From assembly GCA_026393855.1 (NCBI GenBank), contig JAPKZJ010000089.1, forward strand, positions 1-33,148: a DNA stretch of 33,148 bases, in the 5' to 3' direction. A program made the translations under genes and the position numbers. Positions 16,012-28,049 of the stretch are shown here, one piece after another. How positions within the stretch are numbered: the first letter of the stretch is position 1; the number at the start of each line of letters is the position of its first letter. Origin of the DNA: Candidatus Aminicenantes bacterium (GTDB lineage: Bacteria > Acidobacteriota > Aminicenantia > Aminicenantales > UBA4085). Below the pieces are notes generated by a model. That model was not told the origin of the DNA and did not search any database. It was given only the letters and a program-made list of their open reading frames with translations.

Positions 16012-17589
16012 TCAGCCCTTGAGGATCTTGTCCACCTCGGCCTTGTCGGCGTCCATGATGTAGGGGATGCCGCTGATGGCCGCGGCGTCCTTGGTCAGGG
16101 AAGCGATGTCGTCCCGGGTGATGTAGGATAGCCCGAACTTGCGGTTCCCCGCCATAAACTGGCGCACGCCCTGGCTCAGCCGCTTGAAGTAGCTGTAAAC
16201 GCCCAGGGCGCCGGGGGGCAGCTCGGCGAACTTCTTGCCGAAGCGGCGTTTGAGCTCGGGCGCGGTGACGAAGATCTCCTCGATCGTGCTGCCGAACCGC
16301 TCGACGTAGACCGGGATCTGGCCCTCGGTGACGCGCTTGCCGATCGTCTTGCCGACCATAGCCGCGGCCAAGGGGCTTCTGGCCATGCCGACGGCCTTGA
16401 CGTAGGGCGCACCCAAGGCCAGGGCTTTGAAGATCTGGTCCTCGAAAGTAATGCCGCCGGCGTAGACCAAGTCGGGCACGTACTCGCCCTTCTTGGCCAG
16501 CTGGTGGGCGAAATTATAGGTCAGGCTCCAGATCTCGACACAGGGGATGCCCCACTCGTTCATCATCCGCCAGGGGCTCATGCCCGTCCCGCCGCCGGCC
16601 CCGTCCACGGTCAGCATGTCCAGCTTGGCCTTGGAGGCGTACTTGACGGCCCGGGCCAGATCGGCCGGCCGGTAGGCGCCGGTCTTGAGGAAGACCCGCT
16701 TGGCCCCGGCCTTGCGCAGCTCCTCGACCCGCTTCATGAACGACTCCTCCTCGACCATGCCCATCCGGGAGTGGCGCTCGAATTCCCTGAAGCTGCCCTT
16801 CTCGAAGGCGGCGATGATGTTGGGGTCCTCGGGATCGGGCAGAACGATGTAGCCGCGGCGCTTCAGCTCCTGGGCCTTCTTGAGGCTCTTGATCTTGACC
16901 TCGCCCCCGATGTCCTTGGCTCCCTGACCCCACTTGAGCTCGACCGTCTCCACCCCCAGCTTGTCGATGGCGTATTCCTGTACGCCCAGCCGGCCGTCTT
17001 CGACGTTGGCCTGGACGACGACGTCGCCATAGCCGTCCGACCAGTTCTGGAAGCTCTTGACCCGCATCTCCATATCGGGCGAACGCAGGACGCGGCCGTT
17101 CTTGATCTCGGACTCCTCGTCCATGGCGCAGACGTTTTCGCCCACGGTCAGGATGCAGCCGCTGATGGCCGTGCCGATGGCCAGGCCCTCCCAGTTGTTC
17201 TTGGCCACGTTGGTCGAGCCCATGCCGGGGACGACGAACGGGAGCTTCAGCTTGATGTCCTTGTTGCGGCCGATGGTCGTCTCGGTGGTGACCTTCTCGA
17301 AGGTCGCCTTGTCCGAGTCGGCCTCGCAGCCGTAGGCCCCGGCCGCGGTGCCCATGACCGAGAAATGGGACAGATCATAGGGATAGTCCTTCTCCGCCCC
17401 GGCGGTGATGATGCCGAAGGGCTGGGGATACAGGACCTCGGCGCCGCGATAGGCGGACTTGCCGATTTCGCACATGCCGATGCAGCCGTCCACGCACGTG
17501 ACGCACATGCCGCTGATGGCGCTGATCGAGCCTTCGGTTCGATTTTTGGTCAGCGTCGCCGCGCTTCGATTGAGTTTCGTATAAGACAT
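16012..17589 (-). CDS. Glutamate-synthase-type FMN protein with N-terminal Cys motif
   Basis: A 525-residue protein related to the FMN-binding synthase domain of glutamate synthase (GltB central domain). Recognisable are the barrel segments VELKWGQGAKDIGGEVKI (equivalent to the KPGEGG region), DGAGGGTGMSPWRMMNEWGIP (equivalent to DGAEGGTGAAP) and YAGGITFEDQIFKALALGA. There is no amidotransferase domain, no GltD partner and no GXGXG-repeat domain, so glutamate synthesis from glutamine is not supported. The N-terminus has four cysteines spaced CX2CX3CX3C (C29, C32, C36, C40), probably an Fe-S site. It is the last gene of the NuoEF-like operon, 25 bases after the previous stop, and may be that complex's catalytic subunit. 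ATG 17589 has AAGGAGG eight bases upstream; ATG 17595 would be only two bases from it. Confidence 0.85.
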   Translation of the reverse strand: MSYTKLNRSAATLTKNRTEGSISAISGMCVTCVDGCIGMCEIGKSAYRGAEVLYPQPFGIITAGAEKDYPYDLSHFSVMGTAAGAYGCEADSDKATFEKVTTETTIGRNKDIKLKLPFVVPGMGSTNVAKNNWEGLAIGTAISGCILTVGENVCAMDEESEIKNGRVLRSPDMEMRVKSFQNWSDGYGDVVVQANVEDGRLGVQEYAIDKLGVETVELKWGQGAKDIGGEVKIKSLKKAQELKRRGYIVLPDPEDPNIIAAFEKGSFREFERHSRMGMVEEESFMKRVEELRKAGAKRVFLKTGAYRPADLARAVKYASKAKLDMLTVDGAGGGTGMSPWRMMNEWGIPCVEIWSLTYNFAHQLAKKGEYVPDLVYAGGITFEDQIFKALALGAPYVKAVGMARSPLAAAMVGKTIGKRVTEGQIPVYVERFGSTIEEIFVTAPELKRRFGKKFAELPPGALGVYSYFKRLSQGVRQFMAGNRKFGLSYITRDDIASLTKDAAAISGIPYIMDADKAEVDKILKG

Positions 17590-17614
17590 GCTCATTACCT
17601 CCTTGGTGACGATG

Positions 17615-18298
17615 TTAGCTTTTCTTTTCCGTGACGCAGGTGCCGCAGCGGCCCGCATCATACATCCAGCAAGTCAGCTCGCCGTAGGTCTCGAGGCAGG
17701 TCGGCTCGACTTGCAGGCAGGCGTTGCAGATGTCCGAATCGGCGTTGGGGCCGCCGCAGCGGGCCGCGCAGCCCGGGCAGACGTACATGCAGGCGCCGCA
17801 CAGCCGGCACTCCTCGGACCGGATGTCGAAAGGTGTGGAAATTTTCCGCTTGTAGCCGCGGTTCTGGAACCCGATGGCCCGGGCGTTCATCTGCTGGTCG
17901 CACATCCGGATGCACAGCCCGCAGTAGACGCACTCCTCGTTGCGGGGCGGGAAGCGCTGCTGGGTGACCCCGAACTTGGAGGCCAGGTCTTGCATCTCCT
18001 TGGACATGGGCGCGGTGGACAGCATCAGCTCGATCATCATCCGCCGGGCGGCGATGACCCGCTTGGTGTCGGTCCGGACGATAAGGCCTTCCTCGACCGG
18101 GTAAGTGCAGGCCGAGACCAGCTTGGCCCGCGGGCCCTCCCCGATCTCGACGACGCAGAGGCGGCAGCCGCCCCAGGGCGTCAAGCCTTCCATGTAACAG
18201 AGGGTAGGGATCTCCAGCCCGAAAAACTTAGCCGTGTCCAGGAGGGTCCAGCCCTTCTCGGCCTGGACCGGCAATCCGTTGAGAATGATGGTGATCAT
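17615..18298 (-). CDS. Short NuoG/HoxU-like iron-sulfur subunit
   Basis: A 227-residue electron-transfer subunit. The N-terminal [2Fe-2S] ferredoxin domain has C34, C45, C48 and C64. Two [4Fe-4S] motifs follow: CVYCGLCIRMC (123-133) and CRLCGACMYVC (164-174). The His/Cys cluster that normally sits between them in NuoG and HydA (LSNHP-x-C-x-x-C...) is replaced by LSTAPMSKEMQDLASKFG, so that cluster is absent. The C-terminus adds eight more cysteines (177-221), enough for one or two further clusters or a zinc site. No H-cluster or molybdopterin domain is present. Its ATG overlaps the NuoF-like stop by four bases (ATGA), implying fixed stoichiometry. Confidence 0.85.
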   Translation of the reverse strand: MITIILNGLPVQAEKGWTLLDTAKFFGLEIPTLCYMEGLTPWGGCRLCVVEIGEGPRAKLVSACTYPVEEGLIVRTDTKRVIAARRMMIELMLSTAPMSKEMQDLASKFGVTQQRFPPRNEECVYCGLCIRMCDQQMNARAIGFQNRGYKRKISTPFDIRSEECRLCGACMYVCPGCAARCGGPNADSDICNACLQVEPTCLETYGELTCWMYDAGRCGTCVTEKKS

Positions 18299-20196
18299 CG
18301 GCCTCCCTCCAGGATGACGATGGCTTCGTCGCGCTGGGTTTCCACGGCCTCGAACCGGCAGGCCTCGTAGCAGGCGCCGCACTTGATGCACTTCTCCTGA
18401 TCGATGAGGTGGACCTCGCGTAGGCTGCCATGGATGCAGTCGTTGGGGCAGGCCCGCTTGCAGGACAGGCAGCCGGTGCACTTATCGGGCAGGACGGTGA
18501 ACCGGATGAGCGATTTGCAGACTCCGGCCGGACAGCGCTTCTCCTTGATGTGGGCCTCGAATTCCCGCTTGAAGTAGCGCAGGGTGGACAAGATCGGATT
18601 GGCCGCCGTCTGCCCCAAGTTGCACATCGAGGCGTCCTTGACGGCCACCGCCAGCTCCTCGAGGAGCTCGATGTCGCCGATCTTGCCGTGGCCCTCCGTG
18701 ATCCGGGTCACGATCTCGTACATCCGCTGGGTGCCCTCCCGGCAGGAGACGCACTTGCCGCACGACTCGTCGCGCAGGAAGTTCAGGAAATACTTGGCGA
18801 TGTCGACCATGCAGGTCTTGTCGTCCATGACGATCATGCCGCCCGAGCCCATGATGGCCGAGGCGGCAGTCAGGCTTTCGTAGTCGATCGGCAGGTCGAG
18901 CTTGGAGGTGGGCAGGCAGCCGCCGGAGGGGCCGCCCGTCTGGACGGCCTTGAACTTGCGGCCGCCGGGGATGCCGCCGCCGATGTCGAAGATGATCTCC
19001 CGCAGGGTCGTGCCCATCGGCACCTCGACCAGCCCGGTGTTGTTGATCTTCCCGACCAGCGAGAAGATCTTGGTGCCCTTGCTTTTTTCGGTGCCGACCT
19101 TGGCGTACCAGGCGCCGCCCTTGCCCAGGATGAGCGGGACGTTGCCCCAGGTTTCGACGTTGTTGATGACCGTGGGCTTGCCGTTGAGGCCCTTCTCGGC
19201 CGGGAACGGCGGCCGCTGCCGCGGTTCGCCGACCAGCCCTTCGATCGAGCCGATAAGGGCGGTTTCCTCGCCGCAGACGAAGGCTCCGGCGCCCTTGACG
19301 ATCCGGATGTCGAACGAGAACCCAGTGCCCAGGATGTCGGATCCCAGCAGGCCCCGCTTGCGCAGCTCTTCGACGGCCAAGGTGACGTGCTTGACGGCCA
19401 GGGGGTACTCGTCGCGGACGAAGATGATGCCCTCGGTGGCGCCGATGGCGAAGCCGCCGATCAGCATGCCCTCGAGAACCCGGTGGGGGTTGCCTTCGAG
19501 CAGGCTGCGGTCCATATAGGCCCCGGGATCGCCCTCGTCGGCGTTGCAGATGATGTATTTGGGGGAGCCTTTCTGGCCCCGGGCCATGTCCCATTTGACT
19601 CCGGTCGGGAAGCCGGCCCCGCCGCGGCCGCGCAGGCCGGCCGCCTTGACCTCGGCGATGACGGCTTCCGGCGTCATCTTGGCCAGGACCTTGGCCAGGG
19701 CGCCGTAGCCCCCGACGGCCAGGTAATCGTCGATCTGGGTCGGGTCGATCAGGGCGTTGTCGCCCAGGACGATCCGCCGTTGCTTTTTATAGAAGGGGAT
19801 GGCCTTCTCCCGGGGGGCCGTTTTGCCGGTCACCGGGTCCTTGTACAGCAGGGCCTTGATCGTCTTGCTCTTCTTGATCGTCTCCAGGACGATGGCGTCG
19901 GCGTTCTTGGGGTCGACCTTTTGGTAGAACAGGTCATGCGGGTGGACGAGAATGTTGGGCTCGGCCTCGCAGAACCCGTGGCAGCCGGTGACCCGGATCT
20001 TGACCTTCTTGTCGAGCTTGGCCTTCTTCAAGGCCCCTTGCAAAGCCTCGACGACCTTGAGCGCGCCGCGGGCCCGGCCGCAGGTGCCCGCCGAGACCGT
20101 GAGCACCGGCTTCTTGTCGGACTGGCGGAGCTTTCTCTGGACCTCGATGGCCTGTTCCAGGGCTTTGACGGTTTTGAGTTTGACGGGTGTTTTCAT
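18295..20196 (-). CDS. nuoF: NuoF/HydB-like NADH-binding flavoprotein subunit
   Basis: Soluble NAD(H)-oxidising subunit of 633 residues. The N-terminal thioredoxin-like [2Fe-2S] domain shows AGTCGRARGA and TGCHGFCEAEP. The NuoF core contains GLRGRGGAGFPTGVKW (FMN), CNADEGDPGAYMDRSLLEG, GAGAFVCGEETALI and GPSGGCLP. The [4Fe-4S] site is ESCGKCVSCREGT plus the later SMCNLGQTA. Two extra ferredoxin clusters lie at the C-terminus (CTGCLSCKRACP and CIKCGACYEAC). This architecture is that of HydB in bifurcating hydrogenases and HndC, not of respiratory NuoF, which lacks both end domains. ATG 20196 starts the conserved-looking protein. A GTG at 20208 overlapping the NuoE-like stop (GTGA) is an alternative adding four residues; neither has a strong ribosome site. 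Confidence 0.93.
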   Translation of the reverse strand: MKTPVKLKTVKALEQAIEVQRKLRQSDKKPVLTVSAGTCGRARGALKVVEALQGALKKAKLDKKVKIRVTGCHGFCEAEPNILVHPHDLFYQKVDPKNADAIVLETIKKSKTIKALLYKDPVTGKTAPREKAIPFYKKQRRIVLGDNALIDPTQIDDYLAVGGYGALAKVLAKMTPEAVIAEVKAAGLRGRGGAGFPTGVKWDMARGQKGSPKYIICNADEGDPGAYMDRSLLEGNPHRVLEGMLIGGFAIGATEGIIFVRDEYPLAVKHVTLAVEELRKRGLLGSDILGTGFSFDIRIVKGAGAFVCGEETALIGSIEGLVGEPRQRPPFPAEKGLNGKPTVINNVETWGNVPLILGKGGAWYAKVGTEKSKGTKIFSLVGKINNTGLVEVPMGTTLREIIFDIGGGIPGGRKFKAVQTGGPSGGCLPTSKLDLPIDYESLTAASAIMGSGGMIVMDDKTCMVDIAKYFLNFLRDESCGKCVSCREGTQRMYEIVTRITEGHGKIGDIELLEELAVAVKDASMCNLGQTAANPILSTLRYFKREFEAHIKEKRCPAGVCKSLIRFTVLPDKCTGCLSCKRACPNDCIHGSLREVHLIDQEKCIKCGACYEACRFEAVETQRDEAIVILEGGR

Positions 20197-20204
20197 GCGG
20201 CGTC

Positions 20205-20669
20205 TCACTTGTTAAGGTACTGCTTGATGATGGCCTCGACTTTGCGGATCGAGGTCTGGGCGTGATAGTCGCCGTCGACGACCACGACCGGCCCGATGGC
20301 GCAGCAGCCGAGGCAGGCCACGGTTTCAAGCGTGAATTTGCTGTCCTCGGTCGTGTCGCCCGAGGCGATGCCGAGGCGGCGCTCGAACTCCTCCAGGATC
20401 TTCGGCCCGCCCCGGACGTGGCAGGCCGTGCCTAGGCATACCGTCACGACATGGCGTCCGCGCGGCTTCAAGCTGAAAGCCCGATAAAAAGTCGCTACGC
20501 CGATGACGTCGATGAGCGGTACGCCGACGGAGCGGGACACCTGCTGCAGGGCTTCCCGCGGCAGGTAGTTGTACTCCGCCTGGATGTCCTGGAGGATCGC
20601 GATGAGGGCCTTTTTCTCGTTTTTGTGCTTCCGGATAAAGGCGTTCACGCGGTCAGTTTGGACATCCAC
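20205..20669 (-). CDS. nuoE: NuoE/HydC-like [2Fe-2S] subunit
   Basis: A 154-residue thioredoxin-fold subunit that carries electrons next to the NuoF-type flavoprotein. The helical N-terminal half contains ALIAILQDIQAEYNYLP and is followed by the four cluster ligands in VCLGTACHVRGG and ACLGCCAIGP. It is the first gene of the operon. The start is GTG 20667-20669, because CCTCCTT on the plus strand (20679-20685) is a full AAGGAGG nine bases upstream and the protein begins at the family's usual place. The nearby ATG (20664-20666) is out of frame and stops after six codons. A purine/pyrimidine-skewed leader of about 150 bases precedes it. Confidence 0.92.
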   Translation of the reverse strand: MDVQTDRVNAFIRKHKNEKKALIAILQDIQAEYNYLPREALQQVSRSVGVPLIDVIGVATFYRAFSLKPRGRHVVTVCLGTACHVRGGPKILEEFERRLGIASGDTTEDSKFTLETVACLGCCAIGPVVVVDGDYHAQTSIRKVEAIIKQYLNK

Positions 20670-20832
20670 GTGCTGATACCTCCTTCTAAGGAATGGGATT
20701 GGGAAGACGGAGTTGGGGAACGGACAGGAACGCCGAACGGAGCAGAGGGGAGGAGGGGGGAAAGGGGAGAGGCGAGGGCCCGAAAGGAAAGATGGGATAA
20801 CTCCTTGCCGGAACCTGTATAAATGCGAACAA

Positions 20833-20861
20833 GAAATATCATAGCGAAAATGGCTTGTCAA
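20833..20861 (-). promoter_or_regulatory. Probable promoter of the NuoEF-like operon
   Basis: On the minus strand TTGACA (20856-20861), 17-bp spacer, TATTTC (20833-20838) with an upstream TGA that could act as an extended -10. A second candidate lies slightly upstream: TTGTCG (20895-20900), 17 bp, TATTTT (20872-20877), whose -35 falls inside the palindrome of the divergent repressor gene. The leader to the GTG start is 160-200 bases. Confidence 0.5.
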
Positions 20862-20886: not shown

Positions 20887-20915
20887 TTGAAAAACGACAA
20901 ATGTCGTTTTATAAT
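20887..20915 (+). promoter_or_regulatory. Near-consensus promoter of the BlaI-type repressor gene
   Basis: TTGAAA (20887-20892), exactly 17 bp, then a perfect TATAAT (20910-20915). This lies in an A+T-rich island between the divergent redox operon and the repressor gene. The spacer is almost filled by the palindrome described separately, so a bound repressor would block RNA polymerase directly. Confidence 0.85.
20891..20910. promoter_or_regulatory. Palindromic operator, BlaI/MecI/CopY type
   Basis: Perfect inverted repeat with 9-bp arms, AAAACGACA and TGTCGTTTT, separated by AA. Its core ACAnnTGT is the conserved heart of known BlaI/MecI/CopY operators (TACAnnTGTA). The first gene downstream encodes a BlaI-family repressor, so autoregulation is the natural reading. 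It also overlaps a possible minus-strand -35. Confidence 0.75.
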
Positions 20916-20954
20916 CGATAATATGAAACTGAGAAAAATGGCCGGGAGGCGGTC

Positions 20955-21344
20955 GTGAGGCACCATATGCTGTCCGGGGAGAGCCTGGACGTGATGCGCG
21001 AAATCTGGGAGCGGGGCGGCGCCACGGTCAATGAGGTCTGGGCGGGGCTCAATGCCCGGCGCCGGAAAAGGGTCCGCCGGACGACCGTCCAGGTTCAGAT
21101 GCGGCGCCTGGAGGAATACGGCTGGCTGGGCCGCCGCAAATCCGGCCGGGCCTTCGTTTATGCCCCGCAATGGGGCAAGGACGAGACGGCCGTCGACCTG
21201 ATTCGGTCACTGTGCCGGAGCCTTTACGGCGGCTCCCTGGCCGGGCTTTTAGCCGCGCTGCTTCAGACTTGGGACTTGTCCGCGGCCGAGCGGCGGCGCG
21301 TCCGGGCTCTGCTGCGCCGAACGGCAAAGCGCACATGGCCTTAA
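20955..21344 (+). CDS. BlaI/MecI/CopY-family transcriptional repressor, stand-alone
   Basis: A 129-residue winged-helix repressor. Family features visible: LSGESLDVMREIWERGGATV, then RRTTVQVQMRRLEEYGWLGRRKSGRAFVYAP (recognition helix and wing), and the C-terminal dimerisation helix SLYGGSLAGLLAALLQ. Length is normal. No BlaR1/MecR1 sensor protease is encoded beside it, and there is no CopY-type CxC metal motif, so the inducing signal is unknown. The start is GTG 20955, with GGGAGG five bases upstream; ATG 20967 is 17 bases away from it. It is divergent to the NuoEF-like operon and has an operator in its own promoter. I infer self-repression and perhaps control of the redox operon. Confidence 0.85.
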   Translation: MRHHMLSGESLDVMREIWERGGATVNEVWAGLNARRRKRVRRTTVQVQMRRLEEYGWLGRRKSGRAFVYAPQWGKDETAVDLIRSLCRSLYGGSLAGLLAALLQTWDLSAAERRRVRALLRRTAKRTWP

Positions 21345-21492: not shown

Positions 21493-21521
21493 TTGACATC
21501 CTATACTGTGCGTCGTATACT
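21493..21521 (+). promoter_or_regulatory. Consensus sigma-70 promoter of the padR operon
   Basis: TTGACA (21493-21498), 17-bp spacer, TATACT (21516-21521). Located 36 bases upstream of the PadR ATG. It overlaps the repeat array described at 21502-21538. Confidence 0.8.
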
Positions 21522-21538
21522 GTGTATCACAATGTATA
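21502..21538. promoter_or_regulatory. Candidate PadR operator: repeated TATACTGTG plus inverted GTATA
   Basis: TATACTGTG occurs twice, at 21502-21510 and 21516-21524, a 14-bp period. The second copy is the -10 box itself. An inverted partner GTATA follows at 21534-21538, so TATAC...GTATA forms a dyad. PadR proteins often bind dyads over their own promoter, so this is a likely autoregulatory site. Confidence 0.55.
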
Positions 21539-21556
21539 AATATCGAGGGGCCCAAT

Positions 21557-21904
21557 ATGACGAATGACTTCTTCGAGAACCTCCGGTTGGAACTCCGCCG
21601 GGGCTGCGTGCCCCTGGCCGTGCTGGCCGCGCTGCGAGACGAACGCTACGGCTACACTCTTCGTAAATCATTGACCGAGAAGGGGATGGTGGTGGACGAG
21701 GGCACGCTCTACCCGCTGCTGCGGCGCCTGGAATCCCAAGGCTTGCTGACCAGCGAATGGCGCGAGGAAGAGAAGCGCGCCCGCCGCTTCTATCGCCTGT
21801 CCTGCGAAGGCCGGCGGGTCTTGAACCTTTTAACGGCCGAATGGGAAGGCATGACGGCTTCCCTAGCCGGAATCCTCAAGGAGATGAACGATGGATCTCA
21901 TTGA
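21557..21904 (+). CDS. PadR-family transcriptional regulator
   Basis: A 115-residue winged-helix repressor of the short PadR subfamily. Key segments are LRRGCVPLAVLAALRDERYGYTLRKSL (helix-turn-helix), VDEGTLYPLLRRLESQGLLTSEW (recognition helix and wing start) and RRFYRLSCEGRRVLNLLTAEW (wing and dimer helix). GAGGGG (21544-21549) precedes the ATG. The following membrane-protein gene begins inside its last codons (14-base overlap, AAGGAG 21878-21883). This is the usual arrangement of a PadR with a HAAS-domain membrane partner. Confidence 0.92.
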   Translation: MTNDFFENLRLELRRGCVPLAVLAALRDERYGYTLRKSLTEKGMVVDEGTLYPLLRRLESQGLLTSEWREEEKRARRFYRLSCEGRRVLNLLTAEWEGMTASLAGILKEMNDGSH

Positions 21905-22916
21905 ACGCTATCTCAACGCCGTCGGCTTCTGGCTGCCCAAGAATCAGAAAAAGGACATCCTCTCCGAGCTGTCCGAGGACATCCGTTCCCAAGTCGAGGA
22001 GCGCGAGACGGAGCTTGGCCGGGCCCTGGCCGAGGAGGACCTTTCCACCCTGCTCAAGCAGCGGGGGAGTCCCTTCACTGTCGCCGGGCGCTTCCTGCCC
22101 CAGCGTCATCTAATCGGACCGCAGCTCTATCCCATCTACGAATTCGTCCTCAAGCTGGCCGGCGGGATCTACCTCGTCCCTTGGTTTCTGATCTGGGCCG
22201 GCCTGATGATCTTTGTCCCTTCCTATCGATCCGCCCATTCCGGTTCGGCTATATTCCAAGCCCTGGGTTCCCTCTGGACGACGGCCTGGACTCTGTTGGC
22301 CATGATCACCCTCGGATTCGGGATCGGCGAACGGGTTCAACGGAAATCCACGGCCCGCGGGGATTGGAATCCCCGCCGACTCCCGGCCGTCCGCAACACC
22401 CTTAAGGTTCCCCGGACCTCTTCCCTGGCCGAAATCGTCATCAACCCGTTCGTTCTGATCTGGTGGCTGGGAGGGTTCAGCCTCACGGCCGTCTTGTCCC
22501 GCGACGGCGTCCCCGCCTTTCTTAAGCCATCCCCGCTGTGGCTTGATTTCCGAACCCGGTATTTCATCCCCATCGCCGTCTTCATCGTCGTCGTCACGGT
22601 CCTGGCCTTGGTCAACCTGATCCGGCCCAATCTCACTCCTTTTCGCGTCGGCGTGACGGCGGTGATCGACGCTTCGGTGCCGGTCATGATCTTTCAGGCC
22701 CTCGGCGTCCATTCTGCGGAGATTCGCACCGCTTGGGATGCCATGACCGGGGGGGCCGCGGGACCGGACAAGATGGCGGCGATCCGGGATTGGAGCATCG
22801 CCGTGACGCTGGGGATCATCGGGCTGGCCTGCCTGTTCTCGTGCTTCCGGGGCATCCTTCGGATTAGAAAATGGAATGAGATTCAAGCCCGGATTGAGGC
22901 GGCGACGAAGGCCTAG
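21891..22916 (+). CDS. HAAS/DUF1700-like membrane protein, partner of PadR
   Basis: A 341-residue inner-membrane protein. Residues about 1-75 form an alpha-helical cytosolic domain of the HAAS/DUF1700 type (MDLIERYLNAVGFWLPKNQKKDILSELSEDI, then LLKQRGSPFTVAGRFLP). About five or six membrane segments follow, near residues 90-115, 128-150, 185-205, 225-245, 255-275 and 305-325. Such proteins commonly follow padR genes and are thought to link membrane state to the regulator; the signal is unknown. Start ATG 21891 has AAGGAG seven bases upstream within padR. Confidence 0.8.
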   Translation: MDLIERYLNAVGFWLPKNQKKDILSELSEDIRSQVEERETELGRALAEEDLSTLLKQRGSPFTVAGRFLPQRHLIGPQLYPIYEFVLKLAGGIYLVPWFLIWAGLMIFVPSYRSAHSGSAIFQALGSLWTTAWTLLAMITLGFGIGERVQRKSTARGDWNPRRLPAVRNTLKVPRTSSLAEIVINPFVLIWWLGGFSLTAVLSRDGVPAFLKPSPLWLDFRTRYFIPIAVFIVVVTVLALVNLIRPNLTPFRVGVTAVIDASVPVMIFQALGVHSAEIRTAWDAMTGGAAGPDKMAAIRDWSIAVTLGIIGLACLFSCFRGILRIRKWNEIQARIEAATKA

Positions 22917-23068
22917 CTCGTCCGGGTTGGCCTTTTGGGCCATCGAGAAGTGATGAACCCTTCTATACGGCTTGAACGCCACGAAGGGAAGATTTTTCGC
23001 TCCCGATCGTCATAATAATGTGTACAATTTTGCCTTGCCGGCGCGTTAATCCATATGGAGGTTCCCCG

Positions 23069-23866
23069 ATGATGAAAATGAGCTCGAGAAAATGGGCTTT
23101 CGGCCTTTTATTCGTCGTCATTTCCCTGGCCGCCGCGGCCCAGGACGGCCCCGTCAAAAGCACCTGGATGGCCCCGCCCCCGACCGTCGACGGGGCTCCC
23201 GCCGACTGGATCAACCCGGTCTTCGTCGACGTCGAGGGCGGAGACATCGGCTATGCTTTCGCCAACGACGCCAAGAACCTTTACGTCCTCCTGATGATCC
23301 GAAATCCAGCGGCCAAATCGACAATCGATTCGACCGGCGTGACCCTCTATTTTAACGCGGCCAAAAAGAAGAAGGACTACGGAATTCTGTTTCACAAAGT
23401 CATGATCAAGGCCGACGAATATATCGCCCGGTTGGAAAAACAGGGGCCGGTCTCCGAGGATACCAAGAAGCAGATTCGGTCCAAGCCCAGCTACTATCTC
23501 TATGCCCATGAAGTCCTGGGGGCCAAGCCGGAGGGCGTCGCCGCGCCCGAGGCGCCCGTCCAGATTCCCGTCTACAAGTTCGGACCCCAAGGCCAGATGT
23601 TGGTTTACGAGTTTCTGATTCCCTTGGAGCGTCCGGCTTCAACCCAGGCGGGTGTGGCGTCGGCTCCGGGCAAGACCGTCCTCGTCGGCCTCGAGTATGG
23701 CGGCATGACCGACGAGATAAGGCGCCAGAATGCGCGGACCCAGGCCCAGGGGTCGGGTATCGCGGGCGACAACGGCACCAAGATCATCGGCACAACCGGC
23801 ACCAGGGTCAATGCCAAGAAATACTCGTTCTGGTCGGAAGTCCAGCTGGCGCCCGAAAAGCAGTAA
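23069..23866 (+). CDS. Exported CBM9/DOMON-like domain protein
   Basis: A 265-residue exported protein. The signal peptide is about 23 residues (to SLAAAAQDG). The mature part opens with the sequence pattern of the family-9 carbohydrate-binding-like fold: TVDGAPADWINPVFVDV, then YAFANDAKNLYVLLMIRNP and GVTLYFN. Such domains occur in surface and periplasmic proteins and in cytochrome-associated DOMON proteins. No catalytic motif or heme ligand pattern is evident, so a sugar- or ligand-binding role is only inferred. GGAGG (23057-23061) lies seven bases before ATG 23069. It is monocistronic and ends at a clear terminator. The 152-base gap upstream has no promoter I can defend. Confidence 0.75.
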   Translation: MMKMSSRKWAFGLLFVVISLAAAAQDGPVKSTWMAPPPTVDGAPADWINPVFVDVEGGDIGYAFANDAKNLYVLLMIRNPAAKSTIDSTGVTLYFNAAKKKKDYGILFHKVMIKADEYIARLEKQGPVSEDTKKQIRSKPSYYLYAHEVLGAKPEGVAAPEAPVQIPVYKFGPQGQMLVYEFLIPLERPASTQAGVASAPGKTVLVGLEYGGMTDEIRRQNARTQAQGSGIAGDNGTKIIGTTGTRVNAKKYSFWSEVQLAPEKQ

Positions 23867-26631: not shown

Positions 26632-26708
26632 CCCCGATTTTCAAATCGGGGATATAAGCGCCGCTCAGTATGAACCCTACAAATACCCCTGGCTTTAGCC
26701 CGGGGTAT
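26632..26708. repeat. Two REP-like hairpins
   Basis: First: CCCCGATTT-TC-AAATCGGGG (26632-26651), perfect 9-bp arms. Second: ATACCCCTGGCT-TT-AGCCCGGGGTAT (26683-26708), 12-bp arms with one mismatch. The second is flanked by AACCC (26673-26677) and GGGTT (26714-26718), which could form an outer stem. Neither has a T-run, so an intrinsic terminator is unlikely. Short intergenic GGGG/CCCC-footed hairpins of this form are typical of REP-type elements, but I see no second copy in the window. Confidence 0.5.
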
Positions 26709-26756
26709 CAAACGGGTTTATCGGGCCCGGGCTCCGGGCGGAAAGGAGAGCGGCTC

Positions 26757-28049
26757 ATGCGTCAACATCTGATCTCGAGAGCGACATCCGTCGCGCTTTT
26801 CGCGATTGCATTCTCCCTGGCCGCGGCCAGCCTTCCGGCGGGCCAGCTTCCGACGGCCAAGCCGTCCGAGGTCGGGATGTCGGCCGAGCGCCTGCAGCGC
26901 CTGAGCCGCGTCCTGCAGGACTATGTCGACAAGGGCAAGCTGGCCGGCTTGGTCGTCCTGGCCGCGCGGGACGGCAAAATCGCCTATCATCAAGCCTTCG
27001 GCAAGCTCGATCCGGTCAAGGGCACGCCGATGCCGCTCGACGCGATCTTCCGGATCGCCTCCCAGACCAAGGCGATCACCTCCACCGCGGTCATGATCCT
27101 ACAGGAGGAGGGCAAGCTCCTGATCGACGATCCGATCTCCAAGTACATCCCCGAGTTCGCCGATTCGCGGGTCGCGGTCCAGGCTCCCGGCAAGGATGCC
27201 AAGGGCTATACGACCGTCCCGCTGAAGCGCCCGATCACCATCCGCGACCTCCTGACCCATACGGCCGGGATCTCTTATGGCACCGGACCCGCCAAGGACG
27301 CTTGGGCCGCGGCGGGCATCACCGGCTGGTTCCTGGCCGACAAAAACGTCCCCGTGGGCGATGTCATCAAGAAGCTGGCCGGCCTGCCGTTGGACGCTCA
27401 GCCCGGCGAGCAGTTTCTCTATGGATACAACACCGACATCCTGGGCTATCTGGTCGAAGTCGCGTCGGGGATGAGCCTGGCCGATTTCGTGGCCCAAAGG
27501 ATCGCCGGCCCGCTGGGCATGTCCGACACCCATTTCTTCCTGCCCGAATCAAAGCTGGGCCGCTTCACTCCGGTTTATGGCGCCGACGACAAGGGCGGGA
27601 TCAAGCTGGTGGAGGACCCGAAGGACAGCTTCTATGTCAAAGGACCCCGGATGTGCTACGCCGGCGGCGCCGGGCTGCTGGCCACGGCCGAGGACTACGC
27701 CCGCTTCCTGCTGATGCTTCAGAACGGGGGCGAGCTCCAGGGCGTCAGGATTCTAAGCCCCAAGACCGTCGAGCTGATGACGGTCGATCACGTCGGCAAT
27801 CTCTATGGCCCCCAGGGGTTCGGTCTGGGCTTCTGGGTCACCGACCGCCTCGGCCGGAACGGCCAGCCGGGGACGGTCGGGTCCTTCGGCTGGGGCGGGG
27901 CCTACCACACGACTTATTGGGTCGACCCGGTCGAGAAGCTCGTCTGCGTCCTGATGACCCAGCTCTTGCCGGCCGGCAATTCCGACCTGCACGCCAAATT
28001 CCGAGCCATGATCTACCAGGCCATCACGGAGTCGTACGAGAAGCGATAA
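26757..28049 (+). CDS. Exported serine hydrolase, class C beta-lactamase/esterase family
   Basis: A 430-residue exported enzyme of the beta-lactamase/penicillin-binding-protein fold, likely an esterase or D-amino peptidase and not a resistance enzyme. The signal peptide is about 28 residues. The catalytic SxxK motif is S102-Q-T-K105 in FRIASQTKAIT. The second motif is YGYNTDILG (Tyr222), a form seen in family VIII esterases. The third motif region is SFGWGGAYHTTYWVDP, in the place of KTG/HxG. LLTHTAGISYG is also typical. AAGGAG lies eight bases before ATG 26757; an upstream in-frame ATG at 26670 falls among hairpins and lacks a ribosome site. It converges tail-to-tail with the metalloprotease gene, with only seven bases between stops. 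Confidence 0.9.
   Translation: MRQHLISRATSVALFAIAFSLAAASLPAGQLPTAKPSEVGMSAERLQRLSRVLQDYVDKGKLAGLVVLAARDGKIAYHQAFGKLDPVKGTPMPLDAIFRIASQTKAITSTAVMILQEEGKLLIDDPISKYIPEFADSRVAVQAPGKDAKGYTTVPLKRPITIRDLLTHTAGISYGTGPAKDAWAAAGITGWFLADKNVPVGDVIKKLAGLPLDAQPGEQFLYGYNTDILGYLVEVASGMSLADFVAQRIAGPLGMSDTHFFLPESKLGRFTPVYGADDKGGIKLVEDPKDSFYVKGPRMCYAGGAGLLATAEDYARFLLMLQNGGELQGVRILSPKTVELMTVDHVGNLYGPQGFGLGFWVTDRLGRNGQPGTVGSFGWGGAYHTTYWVDPVEKLVCVLMTQLLPAGNSDLHAKFRAMIYQAITESYEKR

Follow-up and report, generated by a model that had tools for sequence, protein, structure and literature searches.

The usual account of BlaI-family repressors invokes a partner protease or, for CopY, the binding of a metal. The window analyzed here, a 33,148-nucleotide contig of a Candidatus Aminicenantes bacterium taken at its full length, encodes a repressor of this family with no linked protease and no CopY signature, raising the question of what this protein controls and how it might be released from DNA. 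An earlier note on this DNA had described a near-perfect TTGAAA-17-TATAAT promoter enclosing a palindrome with the ACAnnTGT core of BlaI-type operators and followed by a BlaI-family gene, with no sensor protease nearby and no CopY signature; each of these observations was upheld, and the note was also correct that the inducing signal is not given by the classical BlaR1 or CopY signatures. The features on the blaI side of the locus are as follows.

20887..20892, plus strand: blaI -35, TTGAAA (consensus scan; identical in genome G002)
20891..20910, no strand: operator palindrome AAAACGACA-AA-TGTCGTTTT (three orphan loci agree in 17 of 20 columns; core in eight partnered promoters)
20910..20915, plus strand: blaI -10, TATAAT (17 bp from the -35; identical in G002)
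20944..20949, plus strand: Shine-Dalgarno-like GGGAGG ahead of the blaI GTG start (direct reading)
20955..21344, plus strand: orphan BlaI-family repressor, 129 amino acids, GTG start (PF03965, 3.4e-21; model matches MecI/BlaI structures)

The repressor and the palindrome in its promoter

The product of 20955-21344 scored 76.2 bits against Penicillinase_R (PF03965; cut-off 22.6), placing it in the BlaI family. Scores against the named BlaI/MecI NCBIfam models (37.4, 29.1, and 20.5 bits) were below their cut-offs of 180, 250, and 250, respectively. Identity as a CopY was rejected, as the protein has a single Cys and no CxC motif and reached 44.8 bits against a cut-off of 121.95 for TIGR02698 (CopY_TcrY). 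When an AlphaFold2 model of the repressor (mean pLDDT 80.2, pTM 0.65) was searched with Foldseek, the 12 best matches were all MecI/BlaI chains, DNA complexes included (E 2e-8 to 2e-6), with 1okr, 1xsd, 2d45, and 2g9w among the matches. The predicted fold is that of a winged helix with dimerization helices, in a model that is a monomer only and whose C-terminal part, from approximately residue 81, is of low confidence (block pLDDT 54-70). In a HMMER alignment, A101-L102 of the window protein lies opposite N101-F102 of Staphylococcus aureus BlaI (1sd4), the bond reported as the BlaR1 cleavage point (PMC9834060); the Asn-Phe scissile bond is thus absent from the window repressor.

The blaI promoter, TTGAAA-17-TATAAT at 20887-20915, matches the consensus at 11 of 12 positions. 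The palindrome at 20891-20910 is a perfect 9-2-9 repeat with an ACAnnTGT core, extended in the window to GACAnnTGTC, unlike the cop box TACAxxTGTA, and shares 2 bases with the end of the -35 and 1 base with the start of the -10. Taken without its context, such a palindrome is unexceptional in 33 kb: when the window was dinucleotide-shuffled 300 times, 91 of the shuffles contained a 9-2-9 palindrome of some sequence, and the window itself contains two further perfect examples, at 22357 and 26632. A palindrome with 9-bp arms and a gap of 0 to 6 arose in 18 of 5,000 shuffles of the local 155 bp, and the operator 20-mer at up to 3 mismatches was not matched in 100 shuffles. As palindromes are common in the window shuffles, the reality of the operator rests on comparison across genomes.

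An 11-codon frame (20923-20957) precedes the repressor gene, with its ATG at 20923, approximately at the expected blaI transcript start, and a TGA overlapping the blaI GTG. G002 has a comparable frame, also of 11 codons and overlapping the blaI start in the same way, whereas G010 has none; translational coupling and coincidence are both possible explanations.

Orphan and protease-partnered homologues

When 94 genomes of the order were searched at E <= 1e-12, 12 blaI loci were identified in 11 of them; a more distant match in G037 (C95, 28% identity, E 7.5e-11) lay outside the comparison. Within the family, 3 of 12 genomes carried blaI and nine had no match at this threshold. These three loci, in the window genome (G000), G002 (77% identity), and G010 (56%), are the orphans, each with a single operator copy and with blaI divergent from nuoE. 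The orphan genomes are three only, two of them of one genus, with estimated completeness of 95.3, 95, and 89%. In a phylum-wide sample of 396 genomes (E <= 1e-20), matches were confined to the window genome, G002, and the partnered genome G025, with G010 possibly outside the sample.

The remaining nine homologues share 36 to 41% identity with the window repressor, and all nine adjoin an HExxH gene scoring above the Pfam Peptidase_M56 cut-off. TonB_C domains are present in seven of these M56 partners and ankyrin repeats in one, while one has neither above cut-off; no transpeptidase domain was listed in the nine at E <= 0.01, the G067 protein ending at a contig end. All eight partnered loci with readable upstream DNA have the operator core inside a TTGACA-17-TATA(T/C)T promoter and a second copy downstream of the first, at +25 bp in seven and +22 bp in one; the ninth, G059, has N in place of upstream sequence and is outside the operator counts. 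The spacer copy in G025 is imperfect (GACAATAGTC).

Across the three orphan loci, 17 of 20 operator columns are invariant; the corresponding figure is 111 of 285 when the intergenic stretch is taken as a whole and 9 of 39 in the blaI leader. The core recurs at the partnered promoters. By this conservation across related loci, 20891-20910 is confirmed as a real predicted operator. The promoter of the G010 orphan is degraded, reading either as TTGAAA-18-TACTAT with the core shifted or as a poor -35 at 17 bp. The recognition segment is near-identical in orphans and partnered homologues (TVQVQM or close), while the first scissile-equivalent position holds Cys in all nine partnered close homologues and Ala, Ala, and Leu in the orphans. 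The orphans form one group with support of 99/100, in a midpoint-rooted tree with a long outgroup row.

On the window contig, a six-frame search of the genome returned no match to M56. The search for a distant BlaR1-like gene, which the earlier note had proposed, turned up a single above-cut-off M56 protein genome-wide, on contig C71 and adjoining its own BlaI; a weaker M56-like match on C23 was below cut-off. The C71 BlaI is 25% identical to the window BlaI, and its promoter, TTGACA-17-TATATT, surrounds a different palindrome, AACTAA-AAGA-TTAGTT. It has Phe at the scissile-equivalent position, so Cys at this position is not general for BlaI-M56 pairs. Compared with the M56 proteins that adjoin the close homologues, the C71 protease shows 21 to 31% identity over 61 to 228 residues. 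As an unlinked BlaR1-like gene is present beside its own BlaI, action in trans has to be weighed. In G002, one BlaI match likewise adjoins an M56 match. An M56 protein on the 5.8-kb contig G010:C37 (L106 3642-5777) is without TonB_C domains, runs into the contig end, and shares 24 to 28% identity with the M56 proteins paired with the close homologues; no BlaI match was found on this contig, and a paired repressor may lie beyond its end.

An operator that fills the promoter spacer is the normal layout in this lineage, as all eight readable partnered homologues and the C71 pair show it. Of the earlier note's interpretation, the BlaI-type operator, the repressor, and the missing linked protease thus stood, and the emphasis on spacer filling did not. 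What is unusual, in one clade, is the lack of an adjoining protease and of a second operator copy, an orphan state that is itself mildly unusual; the absences of protease, second operator, and Cys go together in this clade.

Predicted targets and the divergent nuoE run

Using the 16-mer operator core as a query, one exact match and none at 1 mismatch was found in the window genome, so that the genome-wide search suggested by the earlier note left only the site before blaI. At 0 to 1 mismatch, the window genome, G002, and G010 have one site each, always before blaI, and exact 14-mer matches were found in six of the eight genomes with partnered homologues, all at blaI promoters. With up to 3 mismatches, 41 matches were obtained in the window genome versus 48 for the reversed control, and with up to 2 mismatches, 30 were obtained in the 12 family genomes versus 27, making weak matches indistinguishable from background. 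A wider regulon was rejected on these scans. The three orphan genomes contain no other close site, which leaves blaI itself as the predicted target; the divergent nuoE operon is perhaps also a target. Near-palindromes at 1 to 2 mismatches occur in the blaI-less genomes G001 (a one-mismatch site), G005, and G009, those of the latter two lying at G005:C42:7883, G005:C248:17936, and G009:C48:25049; no BlaI match was found in the 6 kb fetched around each of these three.

Downstream, the gene after blaI encodes a PadR regulator (21493-21904) with its own promoter-like site 149 bp past blaI, a strong TTGACA-17-TATACT. The product of 21891-22916 has a weak HAAS match, below cut-off. These PadR and HAAS-like genes separate blaI from the next gene, and both are absent at the matching place in G002. 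The downstream gene at 23048-23866 was rejected as an operon partner, as it has homologues in 10 of 12 family genomes (E <= 1e-15) versus 3 of 12 for blaI; G010, though carrying blaI, has no match to it, and the downstream neighbor of the G010 blaI is convergent. A PF00144 beta-lactamase-fold serine hydrolase (26670-28049) lies 5.3 kb downstream of blaI, and one is also downstream of blaI in G002; it was rejected as a bla-like target, as there is no second operator match in the window. No copper gene was found among the eight neighboring proteins scanned.

On the other side of the intergenic region lies the divergent run.

20856..20861, minus strand: nuoE -35, TTGACA (invariant in the three orphan loci; TTGACA also in 8/8 blaI-less loci)
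20833..20838, minus strand: proposed nuoE -10, TATTTC, with TGA before it (17 bp from the -35; weak match, inferred from position)
20205..20669, minus strand: NuoE/HoxE-like thioredoxin [2Fe-2S] protein, at the head of the run (PF01257, 1.3e-50)
18295..20196, minus strand: NuoF-like FMN/NADH-binding protein with ferredoxin domains (PF01512, PF10589)
17615..18298, minus strand: NuoG N-terminal-like/HoxU-like Fe-S protein (PF13510; all NCBIfam matches below cut-off)
16012..17661, minus strand: glutamate-synthase-like protein, last gene of the run examined (PF01645, 4.9e-19)

The run at 16012-20669 looks like an NADH-linked electron-transfer complex; its glutamate-synthase-like protein had no NCBIfam match at E <= 0.001. 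The two -35 elements are separated by 25 bp, and the distance from operator to nuoE -35 is 29, 29, and 31 bp in the three orphan loci. The proposed nuoE -10 was not listed by the consensus scan. Relatives of nuoE were identified in all 12 family genomes. In the eight blaI-less loci examined, TTGACA is present 195 to 256 bp before nuoE and the GACAnnTGTC operator is absent; nuoE can therefore do without it. G003, whose sole nuoE match is 48% identical, was outside both this comparison and a NuoE+NuoF tree. In that tree of 11 rows, several of which cover NuoF in part, the blaI-bearing loci group together (94/97) across two genera, a grouping that fits a segment either inherited jointly or acquired by transfer. 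Among the orphans, dN/dS was 0.26 to 0.41 for blaI and 0.11 to 0.30 for nuoE (simple Nei-Gojobori script), which suggests that blaI is constrained, less so than nuoE. The nuoE leader (approximately 20670-20826, minus strand; L046-L051) contains an early GGAGT-containing motif common to several family genomes; its alignment (11 rows) has a mean identity of 40%, and no Rfam family reached the gathering score in the window, leader included.

Probable autoregulation, its alternatives, and known systems

The locus is likely to encode an autoregulated BlaI-family repressor from a lineage that lost its linked protease and the downstream operator copy. A BlaI dimer on 20891-20910, between the -35 and -10, would block RNA polymerase at its own promoter and so keep the repressor level low; judged by the position of the operator, autorepression of blaI is probable. 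The ancestor would have been a BlaI-M56 protease operon carrying this operator core in duplicate, and the window clade would since have shed both the protease gene and the downstream copy, this being the simplest direction in a tree that is not securely rooted. As the clade has no linked protease, release is probably independent of one; it could be brought about by a small ligand, by dilution, or by general proteolysis, or it may never take place. A local effect on the nuoE electron-transfer operon is plausible, as its promoter is the nearest other one.

That the inverted repeat arose by chance, as the frequency of 9-2-9 palindromes among window shuffles might suggest, is extremely improbable, given that three orphan loci conserve it and that eight partnered loci carry its core at the matching point of the promoter. 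It is also very unlikely that the C71 BlaR1-like protease senses a signal and inactivates the window BlaI in trans. The genome does hold this one above-cut-off M56 protein beside its own BlaI, G002 has its BlaI match adjoining M56, and G010 has the M56 protein of its 5.8-kb contig; however, the C71 BlaI is a distant relative with a different promoter palindrome, the C71 protease has low identity to the proteases that accompany the close homologues, and the scissile-aligned residue of the window protein is unlike that of the partnered close homologues. Sequence comparison gives no support for the C71 protease acting in trans.

Two further alternatives concern what the repressor would be for. 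It is possible, if rather improbable, that it is a dedicated local regulator of the nuoE-nuoF-nuoG/glutamate-synthase-like operon, the shared operator tuning both promoters in response to a cytoplasmic redox- or nitrogen-linked metabolite. The retention of blaI beside nuoE in all three orphan genomes, which span two genera, despite a variable flank on the other side, the grouping of blaI-bearing loci in the NuoE+NuoF tree despite the two genera, the near-constant spacing of operator and nuoE -35, and a report that Mycobacterium tuberculosis BlaI regulates the energy gene atpH (PMC8265638) all favor this. However, the operator and nuoE core promoter do not overlap, nuoE is present in every family genome while blaI is in 3 of 12 and the eight blaI-less loci have no operator, the linkage is explicable by vertical inheritance or co-transfer, and the tree has its partial NuoF rows and no G003. 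A decaying remnant, in which the orphan represses itself alone with no physiological target left, is unlikely: the single predicted site, the lack of a blaI match (E <= 1e-12) in nine of 12 family genomes, the lack of a clear operon gene (the G010 neighbor is convergent, and the next gene in the window has its own promoter-like site), and the weaker constraint on blaI than on nuoE would fit it, but the frame is intact in three species, dN/dS is below 0.5, and recognition helix and operator have been retained together.

Returning to the autoregulated repressor, a bolder version is doubtful, namely, that it is a proteolysis-free, ligand-responsive stand-alone BlaI, shared with the divergent NADH/Fe-S/glutamate-synthase-like operon and rewired within one family. 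If true, a BlaI would control redox metabolism instead of antibiotic or copper resistance. Ligand-driven release by a peptidoglycan dipeptide is reported for Bacillus licheniformis BlaI (PMC3305447), and this precedent makes a ligand testable for the window repressor. The orphan clade offers a natural experiment on BlaI release without proteolysis, with repressor and operator constrained and the protease, operator copy, and Cys missing. In practice the benefit is modest, amounting to an annotation and a few suggested experiments.

Among the papers searched, none names both Aminicenantes and BlaI. CopY is, like the window protein, a BlaI-like winged helix without a protease; it is described as metal-driven, with CxC motifs and a cop box, TACAxxTGTA, that shares ACAxxTGT with the window operator (PMC5772342). 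With BlaI and MecI of Staphylococcus and Bacillus, the window repressor shares Penicillinase_R, the predicted fold, a palindromic operator in its own promoter region, and a divergent gene arrangement. It differs from the bla and mec divergons in having no linked BlaR1/MecR1, a GACAnnTGTC core, Ala-Leu in place of the scissile Asn-Phe, and a beta-lactamase-fold gene with no such operator. BlaI_0696 and BlaI_1845 of Clostridium thermocellum are reported to have small autoregulated regulons, as predicted for the window repressor, but their operons include BlaR1 genes and their operators are paired, a pairing called a strict requirement, whereas the window has a single site (PMC8457756). M. tuberculosis BlaI (Rv1846c) is of the same family and its structure, 2g9w, matches the predicted fold; several targets are named for it (blaC, atpH, and sigC; PMC8265638) versus the one predicted site in the window. 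The BlaI-M56 operons of the same order (e.g., G047 and G060) have an adjoining M56 gene, a second operator copy (8/8 readable), and a scissile-position Cys (9/9), all of which the window is without, but have in common with it a near-identical recognition segment, the operator core, and its position in the promoter.
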